Below, piece by piece: positions 58,313 through 62,980 of a stretch of DNA of 64,000 bases (the stretch's first letter is position 1; the number at the start of each line of letters is the position of its first letter). This DNA comes from Phycisphaerae bacterium (GTDB lineage Bacteria > Planctomycetota > Phycisphaerae > Sedimentisphaerales > Anaerobacaceae). The notes beneath the pieces were generated by a model. The model saw only the letters and a program-made list of their open reading frames with translations, made no database searches and was not told the origin of the DNA. The translations under genes were made by a program, and so were the position numbers. The stretch lies in assembly GCA_028714855.1 (NCBI GenBank), contig JAQTLP010000002.1, forward strand, positions 62,001-126,000. The letters are read 5' to 3'.

Positions 58313-58864
58313 TTATGTAGTTTCAGTCTTGTCTTTGCATTGCTGCAGAATCTTTTTTACGTGCCAACGGACGAAATGAGGGGCTCCACAGAGGAGGTAA
58401 ACACCGCATATAAGCATAATTATCCAGGGCAACAAGTCTCGGGAGTTGAAGTGAGCATGGCTATAGATGGTGTGGGCATTCTCTTGAGCCTTGAAAAAGG
58501 CGAGTTGGTTTATGACGTAAGTTATATGCCACAGGACATTAGTAATGAAGTAGAGTCCAGCGGCGATACAGACGAGCCTCAGCGCCACTGGCAGCCATTG
58601 AATTTGTGAGTCGGGCTCGGGCAATTGTTCTGAGCCGACGATTATTCTTGCCAAGTTTTCATTCTTATAAAAGAAAAGGTACAACAACAGTGCAATAAGT
58701 CCTGCAGTCAGCAACAAAGAAAAGAGCGAAGACCCTGCGGTTTTCCAAGAGGGGTTTGAATAAAACCAAAAAATTGCAAGCGGCGATTGAGACAGCAAGC
58801 GAATGGAGAAAAAGATTCCTATTGCTGCGAGAGCGATTTTGGCAAGAGTGTGCATTTTATTCAT
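58313..58864 (-). CDS. Membrane protein, tandem paralog B
   Basis: The 183-residue protein has four membrane helices (around 9-28, 41-63, 93-115 and 147-166). LPEPDSQIQWLPVALRLVCI aligns with a stretch of the adjacent paralog. Its N-terminus MNKMHTLAKI matches the neighbour's MTKMQIIAKA. The start overlaps the neighbour's end by 8 bp. I do not know the family. Confidence 0.7.
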   Translation of the reverse strand: MNKMHTLAKIALAAIGIFFSIRLLSQSPLAIFWFYSNPSWKTAGSSLFSLLLTAGLIALLLYLFFYKNENLARIIVGSEQLPEPDSQIQWLPVALRLVCIAAGLYFITNVLWHITYVINQLAFFKAQENAHTIYSHAHFNSRDLLPWIIMLICGVYLLCGAPHFVRWHVKKILQQCKDKTETT

Positions 58865-59444
58865 TTTTAATTCCTTCTGTGTTTAATTTTTTGTCGAGGG
58901 AAGATTTTGATTTCCGGAGATTTAACTGGTAGCGGATAAACTGCGGCCAGCCGTAAAGCAAGTAAACTGCCAAGATTGCTTTGAGGAAATTGTATATCAT
59001 AGAGGACCATTGGTAAGAGGTGAAAACAAGTGATTTAGGAAAGGCCCTAAAAGTGAATATCTCGTTTACCAGAGAACATATATACAGAGGCGAGACAAGT
59101 ATATTAAGTATCGTTGGAATTGAAGTTGGGAGCAGTAGCAGGCCGTAGAAAATCGCAACCATCCGGAGCGAGCAAGCCAGCCAAATAGCTTCGCTTTCGG
59201 GGTCCAATTTTTCACCTGTCCCCGCTATTTTACAGGCCAGCCAATCATTTTTAAAGATAAGCAAATATACAATCGCTGTTAGTAAAATTATGACAACAGG
59301 CAAGGATAAGATGAACCTGAGGATGGATATATCCTGAGTCAGCGTCTCGGGTATTAGTATGCTGAACGGGGAACAGAAGTTTACTAATGCGCTTATTCCG
59401 AGGAAAGTGAGGAAGGCCTTGGCTATTATCTGCATTTTGGTCAC
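58857..59444 (-). CDS. Membrane protein, tandem paralog A
   Basis: The start at the GTG 59444 (MTKMQIIAKAFLTFLGISA) is preferred because it aligns with paralog B and has GGGAG four bases upstream. The 195-residue protein has four or five membrane helices, with GTGEKLDPESEAIWLACSLRM corresponding to B. It overlaps B by 8 bp, so the two are translated together. The function is unknown. Confidence 0.7.
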   Translation of the reverse strand: MTKMQIIAKAFLTFLGISALVNFCSPFSILIPETLTQDISILRFILSLPVVIILLTAIVYLLIFKNDWLACKIAGTGEKLDPESEAIWLACSLRMVAIFYGLLLLPTSIPTILNILVSPLYICSLVNEIFTFRAFPKSLVFTSYQWSSMIYNFLKAILAVYLLYGWPQFIRYQLNLRKSKSSLDKKLNTEGIKNE

Positions 59445-59571
59445 GAAACTCCCTTTCACGCAACAAACCGACAGTTCTTATTATATTTATGAAGTTTGTG
59501 ATGTCCAGCGGAATCAAAAAAGGCGGTTTTTAGTACTGAAAAGGGCGTTTTTAAGAAAAAAGGGAAAAAGA

Positions 59572-59600
59572 TTGATTAGTAATTGCGAATAAGGTATATT
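59572..59600 (+). promoter_or_regulatory. Promoter for the structured RNA and tRNA-Gln
   Basis: TTGATT (59572-59577), 17 bp and TATATT (59595-59600) lie just before the structured RNA, so transcription would start near 59607. The -35 matches 4 of 6 and the -10 matches 5 of 6. It is divergent from the membrane paralogs. Confidence 0.55.
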
Positions 59601-59615
59601 TCCCCTTTTGAAAAT

Positions 59616-59705
59616 GCCCTGTCGCATGGGGTAGCTAAGGCCGTGAAAACGGCCAATGGGGTCAGCAGTTTTCACGGCATGGCTGACTCAAGCCTCCGAC
59701 AGGGC
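59616..59705 (+). ncRNA. Structured RNA with enclosed pseudoknot and alternative hairpin
   Basis: Outer stem P1 is GCCCTGTCG (59616-59624) with CGACAGGGC (59697-59705). Inside, GCCGTGAAAA (59640-59649) pairs exactly with TTTTCACGGC (59669-59678). Within that loop, GGGTCAGC (59659-59666) can pair with GCTGACTC (59682-59689) outside the loop, one G-T pair, making an H-type pseudoknot. A rival hairpin GGCCGT/ACGGCC with a GAAA tetraloop (59639-59654) uses the same bases as P2, so the two folds exclude each other. It precedes tRNA-Gln by about 100 nt. I could not match it to a known class. Confidence 0.65.
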
Positions 59706-59808
59706 CAAATCGGCCGGGACAAGACGGTCTCCGTGACAAGACAAAGAGCACGAGTGGCAAGAGCAAAAGATATTTGCGATTTACGTACCTTTGGGTTTTT
59801 ACGTGATT

Positions 59809-59880
59809 TACCCGGTGGTGTAATTGGCAACACATGGGCTTTTGGTGCCTACATTCTAGGTTCGAGTCCTAGCCGGGTAG
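59809..59880 (+). tRNA. tRNA-Gln (anticodon TTG)
   Basis: The acceptor TACCCGG (59809-59815) pairs with CCGGGTA (59873-59879), and the discriminator is G. The D arm is GTGT/ACAC, the anticodon stem TGGGC/GCCTA with one G-T pair, loop TTTTGGT giving TTG, and the T arm CTAGG/CCTAG around TTCGAGT. The CCA end is not encoded. Confidence 0.95.
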
Positions 59881-59927
59881 TTTAAGAAAGTTAAAAGTTA
59901 AAGTTCAAAATTAAAAGTTAAGGAAGT

Positions 59928-60719
59928 ATGGCAAAAAGAGCAGCGATAATTCTGGCAGCAGGGGTCAGCAGCAGGATGAAGACAAATACGCCGAAGGTTC
60001 TGCACGAGGTGTGTGGTCGGCCTATGCTGGCATACGTATTGAACGCCTGCAGGGGGGCGGGCGTCGAGAAGATATACGTCGTAGTGGGTTTCGGCGCCGA
60101 ACTGGTAAAAAAGAGGTTCGAGGCTGATGAAGACGTAGTATGGGTCCGGCAGGAGCAGCAGAAAGGGACAGCACACGCGGTTTTGTGCTGCAAGGAACAT
60201 CTTAACGGGTTTGACGGCGAGACGCTGGTGCTTTGCGGGGACGGGCCTTTGACTCGAGCCGAGACGCTAAGTAAAATCATAAAAAAGCACGAGGCTGAGA
60301 AAGCGGCGGCGACGCTGGCAACGGCAATCTTAGACGACCCGACTGGCTATGGGCGGGTATGCAGGGGCGCGGACGGCAATATCGCAGCGATAGTAGAGCA
60401 TAACGACTGCACGAGCGAGCAGCTGAAGATTAAAGAGGTCAATCCAAGCTATTACGTGTTTGACAACCAGCTGCTCTTCGAAGCCGCGGTAAAGGTTCAG
60501 CCGAACAACGCCAAGAAAGAATACTATCTAACGGACGCGATTTCGATTCTCCTCGCGGGCGGACACAAGGTCGCTGCGATTGCAGCGTTGAGTCCTGAGG
60601 AGGCAATGAGCGTCAACACAATGGAACAGCTTCAGGCAGTAAGCAGGATTATGGAAAGCAGGCTCTCAAAAAAGGTAAACAAGGACGTTAAAGTAAAGGC
60701 GGGAAAACAATGCCACTAA
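59928..60719 (+). CDS. glmU: GlmU N-terminal uridylyltransferase domain only
   Basis: The 263-residue protein has the NTP-transferase core of GlmU: AAIILAAGVSSRMKTNTPKVLHEVCGRP, QQKGTAHAVLCCKE, LCGDGPLTRAETL, GYGRVCRGADGNIAAIVEHNDC, NPSYYVFDNQLLFEA and EYYLTDAI. It lacks the C-terminal left-handed beta-helix acetyltransferase, so GlcN-1-P acetylation must be done by another protein. AGGAAGT precedes the ATG. It overlaps prs by 10 bp in the common glmU-prs-rplY-pth order. Confidence 0.92.
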   Translation: MAKRAAIILAAGVSSRMKTNTPKVLHEVCGRPMLAYVLNACRGAGVEKIYVVVGFGAELVKKRFEADEDVVWVRQEQQKGTAHAVLCCKEHLNGFDGETLVLCGDGPLTRAETLSKIIKKHEAEKAAATLATAILDDPTGYGRVCRGADGNIAAIVEHNDCTSEQLKIKEVNPSYYVFDNQLLFEAAVKVQPNNAKKEYYLTDAISILLAGGHKVAAIAALSPEEAMSVNTMEQLQAVSRIMESRLSKKVNKDVKVKAGKQCH

Positions 60720-61663
60720 ATAATACTTTGAAGGTATTTTCCGGCAGCAGCAACCCGGCGTTAACAACGGCGGTTTGCAAGTATCTCGGGATTTCTCTCG
60801 GCCAGGCAAAGATAGACAGGTTTCCCGATGGCGAAAAAGTCATCCGGGTAGAGGATGATGTTCGCGGCAAGGATTGTTTTGTCGTGCAATCGACGTGCAA
60901 GCCGGTTGACGAACATTTAGTCGAGCTTTTAATCTATTTAGACTGCCTGCGAAGGGCCAGCGCCAGCCGAATTACCGCGGTCATACCTTACTTCGGTTAC
61001 GCGCGGCAGGACAGAAAAGACGAAGGCCGAGTGCCAATTACCGCAAAACTGGCGGCCAATCTTATAACTTGCGCCGGGGCCAACAGGGTGCTGGCGATAG
61101 ATTTACACGCACAGCAGCTTCAGGGTTTTTTTGATATACCTGTGGACCACCTGACGGGGGAACTGGTGCTGAGCAAGTATTTCAAGAAGAAGAAAATCAG
61201 CAATCTAACGGTAGTTTCGCCGGACGTCGGCAATATAAAGACAGCATCGCGATATACTTCTCACCTGGGCGGAGAGCTTGCAATCGTACACAAAAGACGA
61301 GTGAGCGGCAGCGAGGTGGAGGCGAGGGAAATCATCGGTGACGTGAAAGGCAGAAACATCTTAATGTGTGACGACATCATCGCAACCGCCGGGACGGTGT
61401 GCAGTGCGGCCAAGTTAATCAGGCAGCGCGGAGCCGAAAAGATATACGTCGGCGCCACGCACGGCGTGTTTGCAGGAGAAGCGCTGAAGCTTCTAAGCAA
61501 GGCACCGATTGACGAGGTGGTAGTCACCGATACCATACCACAGAACAAGGAAACCAAGAAGCTGCGTAATATCAGGGTTTTAACCGTTTCGGCAATGTTA
61601 GGTGAGGCAATAAAGAGAATTCACAAGAACGAATCAGTCAGCAACCTATTTGAAGTATTTTGA
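60710..61663 (+). CDS. prs: Ribose-phosphate pyrophosphokinase
   Basis: Prs makes PRPP from ribose 5-phosphate and ATP for nucleotide, histidine and tryptophan synthesis. The 317 residues include FSGSSNPALTTAVCKYLG, ITAVIPYFGYARQDRKDEGR, the PP loop region LAIDLHAQQLQGFFDIPVDHL, VSPDVGNIK, and the PRPP-binding ILMCDDIIATAGT. It is full length and overlaps glmU by 10 bp. Confidence 0.97.
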   Translation: MPLNNTLKVFSGSSNPALTTAVCKYLGISLGQAKIDRFPDGEKVIRVEDDVRGKDCFVVQSTCKPVDEHLVELLIYLDCLRRASASRITAVIPYFGYARQDRKDEGRVPITAKLAANLITCAGANRVLAIDLHAQQLQGFFDIPVDHLTGELVLSKYFKKKKISNLTVVSPDVGNIKTASRYTSHLGGELAIVHKRRVSGSEVEAREIIGDVKGRNILMCDDIIATAGTVCSAAKLIRQRGAEKIYVGATHGVFAGEALKLLSKAPIDEVVVTDTIPQNKETKKLRNIRVLTVSAMLGEAIKRIHKNESVSNLFEVF

Positions 61664-61693: not shown

Positions 61694-62383
61694 ATGGAAA
61701 AAAGTTTGTTGTTAAAGGCAGAAATTCGAGAACAGACCGGCTCAGGTCAGGCGGCGAAAGTACGTAAGGGCGGGCGGATACCTGCAATTGTGTACGGGCA
61801 TAAGGAAGAGCCGATAGCTATTTCGCTTGATGCGCATAGTCTGGTAGAAGGGCTGCATCACGGACACCGGCTGATGGACGTGCAAATCGGCGAAAAGCAG
61901 GAGAAGATGCTTGTAAAGGAGCTGCAATACGACCATCTCGGAAGGAATATTATTCATGTGGACCTGATGAGGGTCGATGTAACCGAGACAATCAAGGTGG
62001 CAGTTCCTGTTGAGCTTAAGGGCATAGCTAAAGGCGCGCATGAGGGAGGCGTTGTTCAGCTACATACAAACCGTCTGGAAGTCGAGTGTAAAGTAACAGA
62101 TATTCCTGAGGTTATTGTTATTAACGTGAAAGATGTAGGTGTTGGTGACACGCTGCATGCCAGCGACATAGAGCTTCCGAGCGGTGTCAAGCTGGAAAGC
62201 GTGCCGACAACGCTGCTGGTTACCTGCAGCGTGATTGCCGCTGCCAAGAGCACTGAAGAACTCGAGGCGGAAATGCCGGCTGCTCCAGAAGTCATCGGTG
62301 AGGTCAAAGAAGAAGAGGCAGAGGGAGAGGAAGCAGAAGAGAAGCCGGAAAAGAAATCAGAAAAGAAGGAAGAGACCAAATAG
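61694..62383 (+). CDS. rplY: 50S ribosomal protein L25 (CTC form)
   Basis: L25 binds 5S rRNA. The 229-residue CTC form has the L25 domain (LKAEIREQTGSGQAAKVRKGGRIPAIVYG) followed by the C-terminal beta domain (VPVELKGIAKGAHEGGVVQLH, TLHASDIELPSGVKLES). It ends in an acidic and Lys-rich tail (from about residue 195). AGAGG lies before the ATG. It is part of the prs-rplY-pth run. Confidence 0.95.
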   Translation: MEKSLLLKAEIREQTGSGQAAKVRKGGRIPAIVYGHKEEPIAISLDAHSLVEGLHHGHRLMDVQIGEKQEKMLVKELQYDHLGRNIIHVDLMRVDVTETIKVAVPVELKGIAKGAHEGGVVQLHTNRLEVECKVTDIPEVIVINVKDVGVGDTLHASDIELPSGVKLESVPTTLLVTCSVIAAAKSTEELEAEMPAAPEVIGEVKEEEAEGEEAEEKPEKKSEKKEETK

Positions 62384-62404: not shown

Positions 62405-62980
62405 ATGGAAGTGCCTGAGATTAAAATGGTCGTTGGCCTGGGTAATCCGGGTAAAGAGTATGTTGGTACGCGGCACAATATCGGCTTTAGGGTAATAGAT
62501 TCTCTGGCAGAGGCGCTAAAGATAGAGGTAAAAAAGAAAAGATTCAGTGCCTGCTTAGGAACAGGAGAATTTGCGGGCAAGAAAATGATGTTAGTAAAGC
62601 CGATGCGGTTTATGAATTGCAGCGGCCAGGTTGTCGCAACAGCGACGGGTTTTTATAAGCTCAAATTGAGCGATTTGCTTGTGATAACCGACGATATGGC
62701 GTTACCGGCAGGCAGGATCCGGGTAAGGATGAAAGGCTCGGCCGGCGGCCACAATGGTTTAGCTGACGTAATAGAAAAGCTCGGCACGGAGAATGTAAAC
62801 CGATTACGAGTAGGTATCGGCCAAAGTGAAGAGGAAGACGCTCATGATTATGTTCTCGGTAAACCAAAAGCGGCAGATAGGCCGCTGCTGGATGAAGCGA
62901 TTATCAAGGCGCGGGACGCCGTGCTTTGCTGGATTGAATATGGAATAAGAGCGACAATGAATAAGTTTAATCCGCCATAA
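62405..62980 (+). CDS. pth: Peptidyl-tRNA hydrolase
   Basis: Pth frees tRNA from prematurely released peptidyl-tRNA. The 191 residues include VGLGNPGKEYVGTRHNIGF (catalytic His in TRHNIG), LVKPMRFMNCSG, VITDDMALPAGRIRVR and GSAGGHNGLADV. The family normally begins at the VVGLGNPG strand, so ATG 62426 is an alternative start seven codons downstream. It is followed 48 bp later by rpsF. Confidence 0.95.
   Translation: MEVPEIKMVVGLGNPGKEYVGTRHNIGFRVIDSLAEALKIEVKKKRFSACLGTGEFAGKKMMLVKPMRFMNCSGQVVATATGFYKLKLSDLLVITDDMALPAGRIRVRMKGSAGGHNGLADVIEKLGTENVNRLRVGIGQSEEEDAHDYVLGKPKAADRPLLDEAIIKARDAVLCWIEYGIRATMNKFNPP

Follow-up and report, generated by a model that had tools for sequence, protein, structure and literature searches.

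Structured leaders and stable non-coding RNAs are both familiar kinds of RNA. In the SAM-IV riboswitch (RF00634), P1 is arranged around a multi-way junction, a further hairpin lies 3′ of P1, and the P3 loop forms a pseudoknot with the 3′ tail. The processive antitermination leaders EAR and put act as structured nascent RNA, for which no small-molecule terminator switch is needed. Many riboswitch classes are present at several operons, and in the HDV ribozyme fold the partner of the 3′ strand is a segment lying between P1 and P3. The novelty of the element described here lies not in its general kind but in the RNA family itself, which no Rfam family matches.

The element was found in a Phycisphaerae bacterium of the order Sedimentisphaerales, at 59612-59740 on the plus strand of the window (the whole 64,000-nt stretch of DNA that was analysed), these bounds being the extent of the match to our covariance models R1, R2 and R3. 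The initial annotation had drawn a 90-nt element, which proved too short, as part of the conserved pseudoknot lies beyond it. Upstream on the same strand is a sigma-70-type promoter (59572-59600), consisting of TTGATT (59572-59577), a 17-nt spacer and TATATT (59595-59600), the pair already picked out as promoter-like; from it, transcription would start near 59607-59610. Downstream, again on the plus strand, come an unconserved linker (59737-59807), tRNA-Gln with anticodon TTG (59808-59881; ARAGORN and Rfam) and four genes called with Pfam: a glmU-like nucleotidyltransferase gene (59928-60719), prs for PRPP synthetase (60710-61663), rplY for ribosomal protein L25/TL5 (61694-62383) and pth for peptidyl-tRNA hydrolase (62405-62980). 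The glmU-like protein, of 263 aa, has the N-terminal nucleotidyltransferase domain only and lacks the acetyltransferase repeats. On the minus strand, two adjacent small ORFs resembling membrane proteins (58313-58864 and 58857-59459), neither with a Pfam match, are perhaps tandem relatives.

The sequence comparisons support a pseudoknotted non-coding RNA with its own promoter, upstream of tRNA-Gln and, in the source genome, of glmU. Region 59605-59710 has a folding energy of -50.6 kcal/mol, against -32.3 when shuffled (z -5.6). No reading frame is conserved across the element and the ORFs there are not kept among relatives, which agrees with the first impression that no ORF fits. The segment holding hairpin P2 ranges from 7 to 132 nt in relatives, with lengths evenly distributed modulo 3; the RNA measures ~110-240 nt with this variable segment counted in.

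At gathering cut-offs, Rfam 15 identified tRNA only in the window, and a permissive scan of the local stretch (E ≤ 10) gave a best non-tRNA score of 15.3 bits against a cut-off of 79, so the early impression of an undescribed class stands. Rfam likewise returned tRNA only for 18 relatives, and the slices of two loci (L305 and L034) were also without a family match. The RNase P, tmRNA, SRP and 6S RNAs are each encoded elsewhere in the same genome, and the element was rejected as any of these four since all were found at other sites. No description of such an RNA was found in the literature searched, which did not extend to subscription papers, supplementary motif lists and preprints.

The conserved fold, as read from covariation, is a closing helix (P1 with P1b), the variable hairpin P2, a hairpin P3, an order-specific hairpin P4 and a pseudoknot, all on the plus strand. 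P1 (59616-59624 with 59697-59705; GCCCTGTCG/CGACAGGGC) is the 9-bp closing stem of the initial annotation, and all nine of its pairs covary in alignment A2 of 95 sequences. P1b joins 59628-59631 (GGGG) to 59693-59696 (CCUC), with 99.5% of cells paired and two-sided changes in three of the four pairs. The 8-bp pairing of 59659-59666 with 59682-59689 (GGGTCAGC/GCTGACTC, one G.U), also visible in the single sequence, is the conserved P3, where 99.3% of cells are paired and six of the eight pairs show two-sided changes. In P4 (59712-59729, with 59712-59716 paired to 59725-59729) two-sided changes occur in 6/6 pairs.

The pseudoknot pairs UCACGG of the P3 loop, L3 (59672-59677), with CCGUGA (59731-59736). 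A pseudoknot had been proposed from the start; the conserved one is formed by these strands and not by those first given. The two strands covary, with two-sided changes in four of six pairs and pair types in A2 of A-U 53/G-C 40, G-C 75/A-U 18 and G-C 88/A-U 5. Together they bound a compact domain, closed at its 5′ end by P1 and at its 3′ end by the pseudoknot. A long-range helix between CAYGG, directly 5′ of the P1b GGGG, and CCGUG was rejected, since its middle base is C, A or T against an invariant G, while L3 and CCGUGA covary. In two relatives (L015 and L030) the 3′ strand of P1 bulges out into an additional hairpin of ~40 nt.

Overall, 97.3% of A2 cells are paired and two-sided changes are found in 28 of 33 pairs, the kind of compensatory change in relatives that the initial annotation had looked to for support. 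Cells with two-sided changes number 451, compared with 129 after shuffling and at most 54 in slid controls, in an alignment that favours P1, P1b, P3 and P4, having been fitted to a model of these four helices from which the pseudoknot was absent. The same helices in 18 copies from outside the order (11 of which had contributed to building R3) are 94.4% paired, with 91 two-sided cells against 29 when shuffled. In every one of these 18 an L3 segment is complementary to the tail, with sequences that differ among copies (for example TCGCGG/CCGCGA, ACGCGGC/GCCGCGT, GTAACGGC/GCCGTTGC and TCGCAGC/GCTGCGA); one such match alone is not always beyond chance, while the set of 18 is. P4 is kept within the order and mostly absent beyond it, being gapped in 14-15 of the 18.

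P2 (59639-59654, plus strand) corresponds to the GAAA-tetraloop hairpin GGCCGTGAAAACGGCC, which is present just as first described but is variable in sequence and length; the P2 segment of relatives folds on average better than its shuffles (z -1.8) without conserved sequence. The initial annotation had set this hairpin against a perfect 10-bp stem, GCCGTGAAAA/TTTTCACGGC (59640-59649 with 59669-59678), as two mutually exclusive folds. The stem does exist in the window; as a conserved helix it was rejected, with 46% of cells paired and a complete version in only one of 95 relatives. P2 and L3 are overall no more complementary than shuffles (5.6 versus 5.3), and mutually exclusive folds are unsupported because the stem is not conserved.

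The sister species L002 has a 9-bp version of the stem with one G.U, and in the genus of L001 and L002 the pairing of P2 with L3 can run over 9-10 bp, an extent that most relatives do not reach. In that genus it would compete with the conserved pseudoknot, and a pair of exclusive folds would be restricted to the source genus at most. In many relatives, P2 (as in L008, L009, L010, L023 and L024) and the linker (as in L003, L004 and L008) contain TTGATTATTGACTATTGAATATTGA-like stretches that pair with inverted copies of themselves, which gives the impression of a dispersed palindromic repeat inserted in the variable hairpin.

BLASTN with 59572-59807 as query gave matches in most genomes of the same family and in some of the order. 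R1, built from a first alignment of 28 sequences and followed by R2 and R3, finds one copy in 131 of 161 Sedimentisphaerales genomes, and in 61 of the 66 of good quality. Beyond these it gave only two matches, a further copy of nearly full length (the genome concerned has 5% contamination) and a fragment at a contig edge. Among the order genomes without a match that were examined, four have no prs in the assembly and others have prs close to a contig start; one genome without an R1 match (G080) contained the element when its locus was read directly. The examined misses are mostly a missing locus or a break near a contig edge.

A pattern scan of a contig collection returned Planctomycetota records only, several of them named Sedimentisphaerales, Anaerohalosphaeraceae or Phycisphaerae. 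R2 and R3 extend the family to other Phycisphaerae families (f97, f98, f100, f102, f107 and f109), and direct reading of prs loci adds f104, f105 and f106; families f8, f10, f11 and f101 gave no convincing match. L268, a member of f9, has a candidate found by eye and by a structural-descriptor scan, to which the model gives no score; that scan exceeded its shuffles in L278 and L268, missed several true copies and is taken as a lead only. Samples across the phylum (294 genomes with R1 and 392 with R3) yielded no match outside the class Phycisphaerae, in searches whose stricter Infernal filters may miss diverged copies. A second R3 match in one genome (L309, G547:C19), with no tRNA nearby and its core motifs lost, was judged to be chance. 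In genome G449 a minus-strand stretch (L264 175-255, L290 197-277), opposite in strand to the nearby prs, matches the model weakly and has recognisable P3/L3 motifs; it is either a relocated copy or chance. The genomes compared are mostly metagenome-assembled, and their names and completeness carry the usual uncertainty. On this comparative evidence, the element is real and conserved far beyond its source genome.

The position before tRNA-Gln, first noticed in the window, recurs throughout: each of the 101 copies that could be tested (those with enough sequence) has tRNA-Gln(TTG) downstream on the same strand, at a median distance of ~80 nt. Blind matches outside the order preceded tRNA-Gln in six of six cases for R2 and in six of the seven new ones followed up for R3, and within the order the RNA was never seen apart from the tRNA-Gln operon. 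Genome G000 has 46 tRNA genes, with tRNA-Gln TTG at the operon and CTG elsewhere; the tRNA-Gln(UUG) downstream of the RNA is the genome's only one. Beyond the tRNA comes (glmU-)prs-rplY-pth, with prs present wherever the locus extends far enough and glmU absent from ~22 loci. Upstream, by contrast, the neighbours at 102 loci belong to 70 different families and are found on both strands.

In family f97 (L228 and L231) a gene identified by Pfam as ilvD stands between the RNA and tRNA-Gln. This ilvD-like dihydroxy-acid dehydratase gene lies 30-40 nt 5′ of the tRNA, too close for the tRNA to have a promoter of its own in between. The arrangement was predicted and then confirmed in f105: ilvD sequence just 5′ of its tRNA-Gln led to a search further upstream, where the RNA was found (L280/L289), still heading the operon with the ilvD-like gene in between.

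The promoter is kept at the same place in relatives, with a score of at least 9/12 in 53% of 117 loci, whereas a control stretch lying further upstream reaches it in 2.6% and shuffled sequence in 7%, and in most loci it ends ~6-24 nt 5′ of P1. Weak terminator-like sites were counted in 31 of 99 linkers against 21 in shuffles, no clear excess. A genome from a different class (L287) has TTGACA/TAGACT ~33 nt 5′ of tRNA-Gln with no space for the RNA, and this one case suggests that the RNA occupies a site that is empty in other lineages.

The comparisons establish a structured RNA at the 5′ end of one operon, to which it is fixed, and they leave two readings of its function close to each other in likelihood. 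We put at about even the chance that the new family is the 5′ end of the tRNA-Gln(UUG)-(glmU)-prs-rplY-pth transcript and works there as a cis-acting leader. The RNA would fold while RNA polymerase leaves the promoter, and the folded leader would govern transcription or processing of the tRNA-Gln operon. With a tRNA as the first gene and no conserved intrinsic terminator, it would probably work through factor-dependent (Rho) termination or antitermination, which it would control, or by affecting how the precursor is protected and processed. The invariant junction and the L3/pseudoknot core may sense a signal, whether metabolite or protein; PRPP, glutamine and L25 are guesses from gene content only. 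A cis-acting leader is favoured by the constant downstream operon, the variable upstream neighbours and the way the RNA stays at the operon head across the ilvD insertion. Conserved linkage is no proof of cis action, since the operon itself is conserved, and the leader would have no direct control over translation of glmU or prs, as RNase P cleavage at the tRNA would separate it from the mRNA.

Nearly as likely as the cis-acting leader, though we lean a little away from it, is a stable trans-acting RNA that would share the tRNA-Gln promoter, be released when RNase P cuts at the 5′ end of the tRNA, be trimmed back to the pseudoknot and serve as a further small house-keeping RNA. The strong, constitutive-looking promoter, near consensus, also suits a stable RNA gene, as do the single copy per genome throughout the order, the compact domain sealed by P1 and the pseudoknot, and a tRNA preceded by neither a terminator nor a conserved linker; the four known house-keeping RNAs, moreover, all have genes of their own elsewhere. 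Against it, the RNA always stays with the tRNA-Gln operon in the order, and in f97 and f105 it is followed directly by ilvD, so that a cut by RNase P at the tRNA would fail to release it.

A metabolite riboswitch, for instance for PRPP, glutamine or an aminosugar nucleotide, exerting classical terminator control over the operon is improbable. Its invariant junction and loop nucleotides are aptamer-like, and prs always and glmU often lies downstream, but the lack of a conserved intrinsic terminator in the 99 linkers speaks against classical attenuation, the first gene is a tRNA, and each genome has a single location. Still less credible is a ribozyme whose self-cleavage would process the tRNA precursor at its 5′ end: the compact pseudoknotted fold and many invariant nucleotides would suit one, but no Rfam ribozyme family matches and neither end has conserved nucleotides resembling a cleavage site. 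An HDV-like ribozyme was rejected for its strand order, the 3′ strand of the new RNA pairing with the P3 loop. Chance folding of a functionless intergenic region, which GC-rich DNA can yield at random, is refuted by covariation above the shuffled and slid controls and by blind matches that fall upstream of tRNA-Gln.

The RNA is probably both real and important. Few RNAs occur once in almost all genomes of an order and persist through much of a class, and those so widely kept have usually proved to be essential machines or key regulators. Because it stands between a promoter and the sole tRNA-Gln(UUG) gene, heading prs-rplY-pth, its role can be tested directly. If it acts in cis, a tRNA would be under the control of a structured leader; if it acts in trans, an abundant, little-studied lineage of sediments would have a new core RNA. 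Tentatively, and with somewhat less than even confidence, we see in it a lineage-wide Phycisphaerae house-keeping RNA, made before and with tRNA-Gln, with a function common to no known RNA, either as a new small house-keeping RNA or as the first known sensor RNA governing a tRNA gene.

Among described systems, SAM-IV has the same overall arrangement, but the new RNA does not match it at E ≤ 10, its P2 is variable with no conserved core, and it is not upstream of sulphur or methionine genes. With EAR and put it has in common a structure in the nascent transcript; it differs in lacking an Rfam match to them and in operons and taxa, and antitermination by the new RNA is hypothetical. T-box leaders (RF00230) are likewise linked with tRNA, and a CAA triplet is common in J3/1 of the new RNA, which, however, precedes the tRNA gene itself, has no conserved UGG bulge and has no Rfam match. 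A T-box was rejected, as relatives have CAG, CAU or CUG in place of the specifier-like CAA and the UGG positions vary. Autoregulatory leaders of ribosomal proteins are similarly present in one copy, restricted to lineages and placed upstream of an operon with a ribosomal protein gene, here rplY, although rplY lies several genes downstream behind the tRNA and no motif like 5S loop E was seen by eye. The 6S, tmRNA, SRP and RNase P RNAs differ from the new RNA in structure, but they are, like it, single-copy and widely kept in the group.
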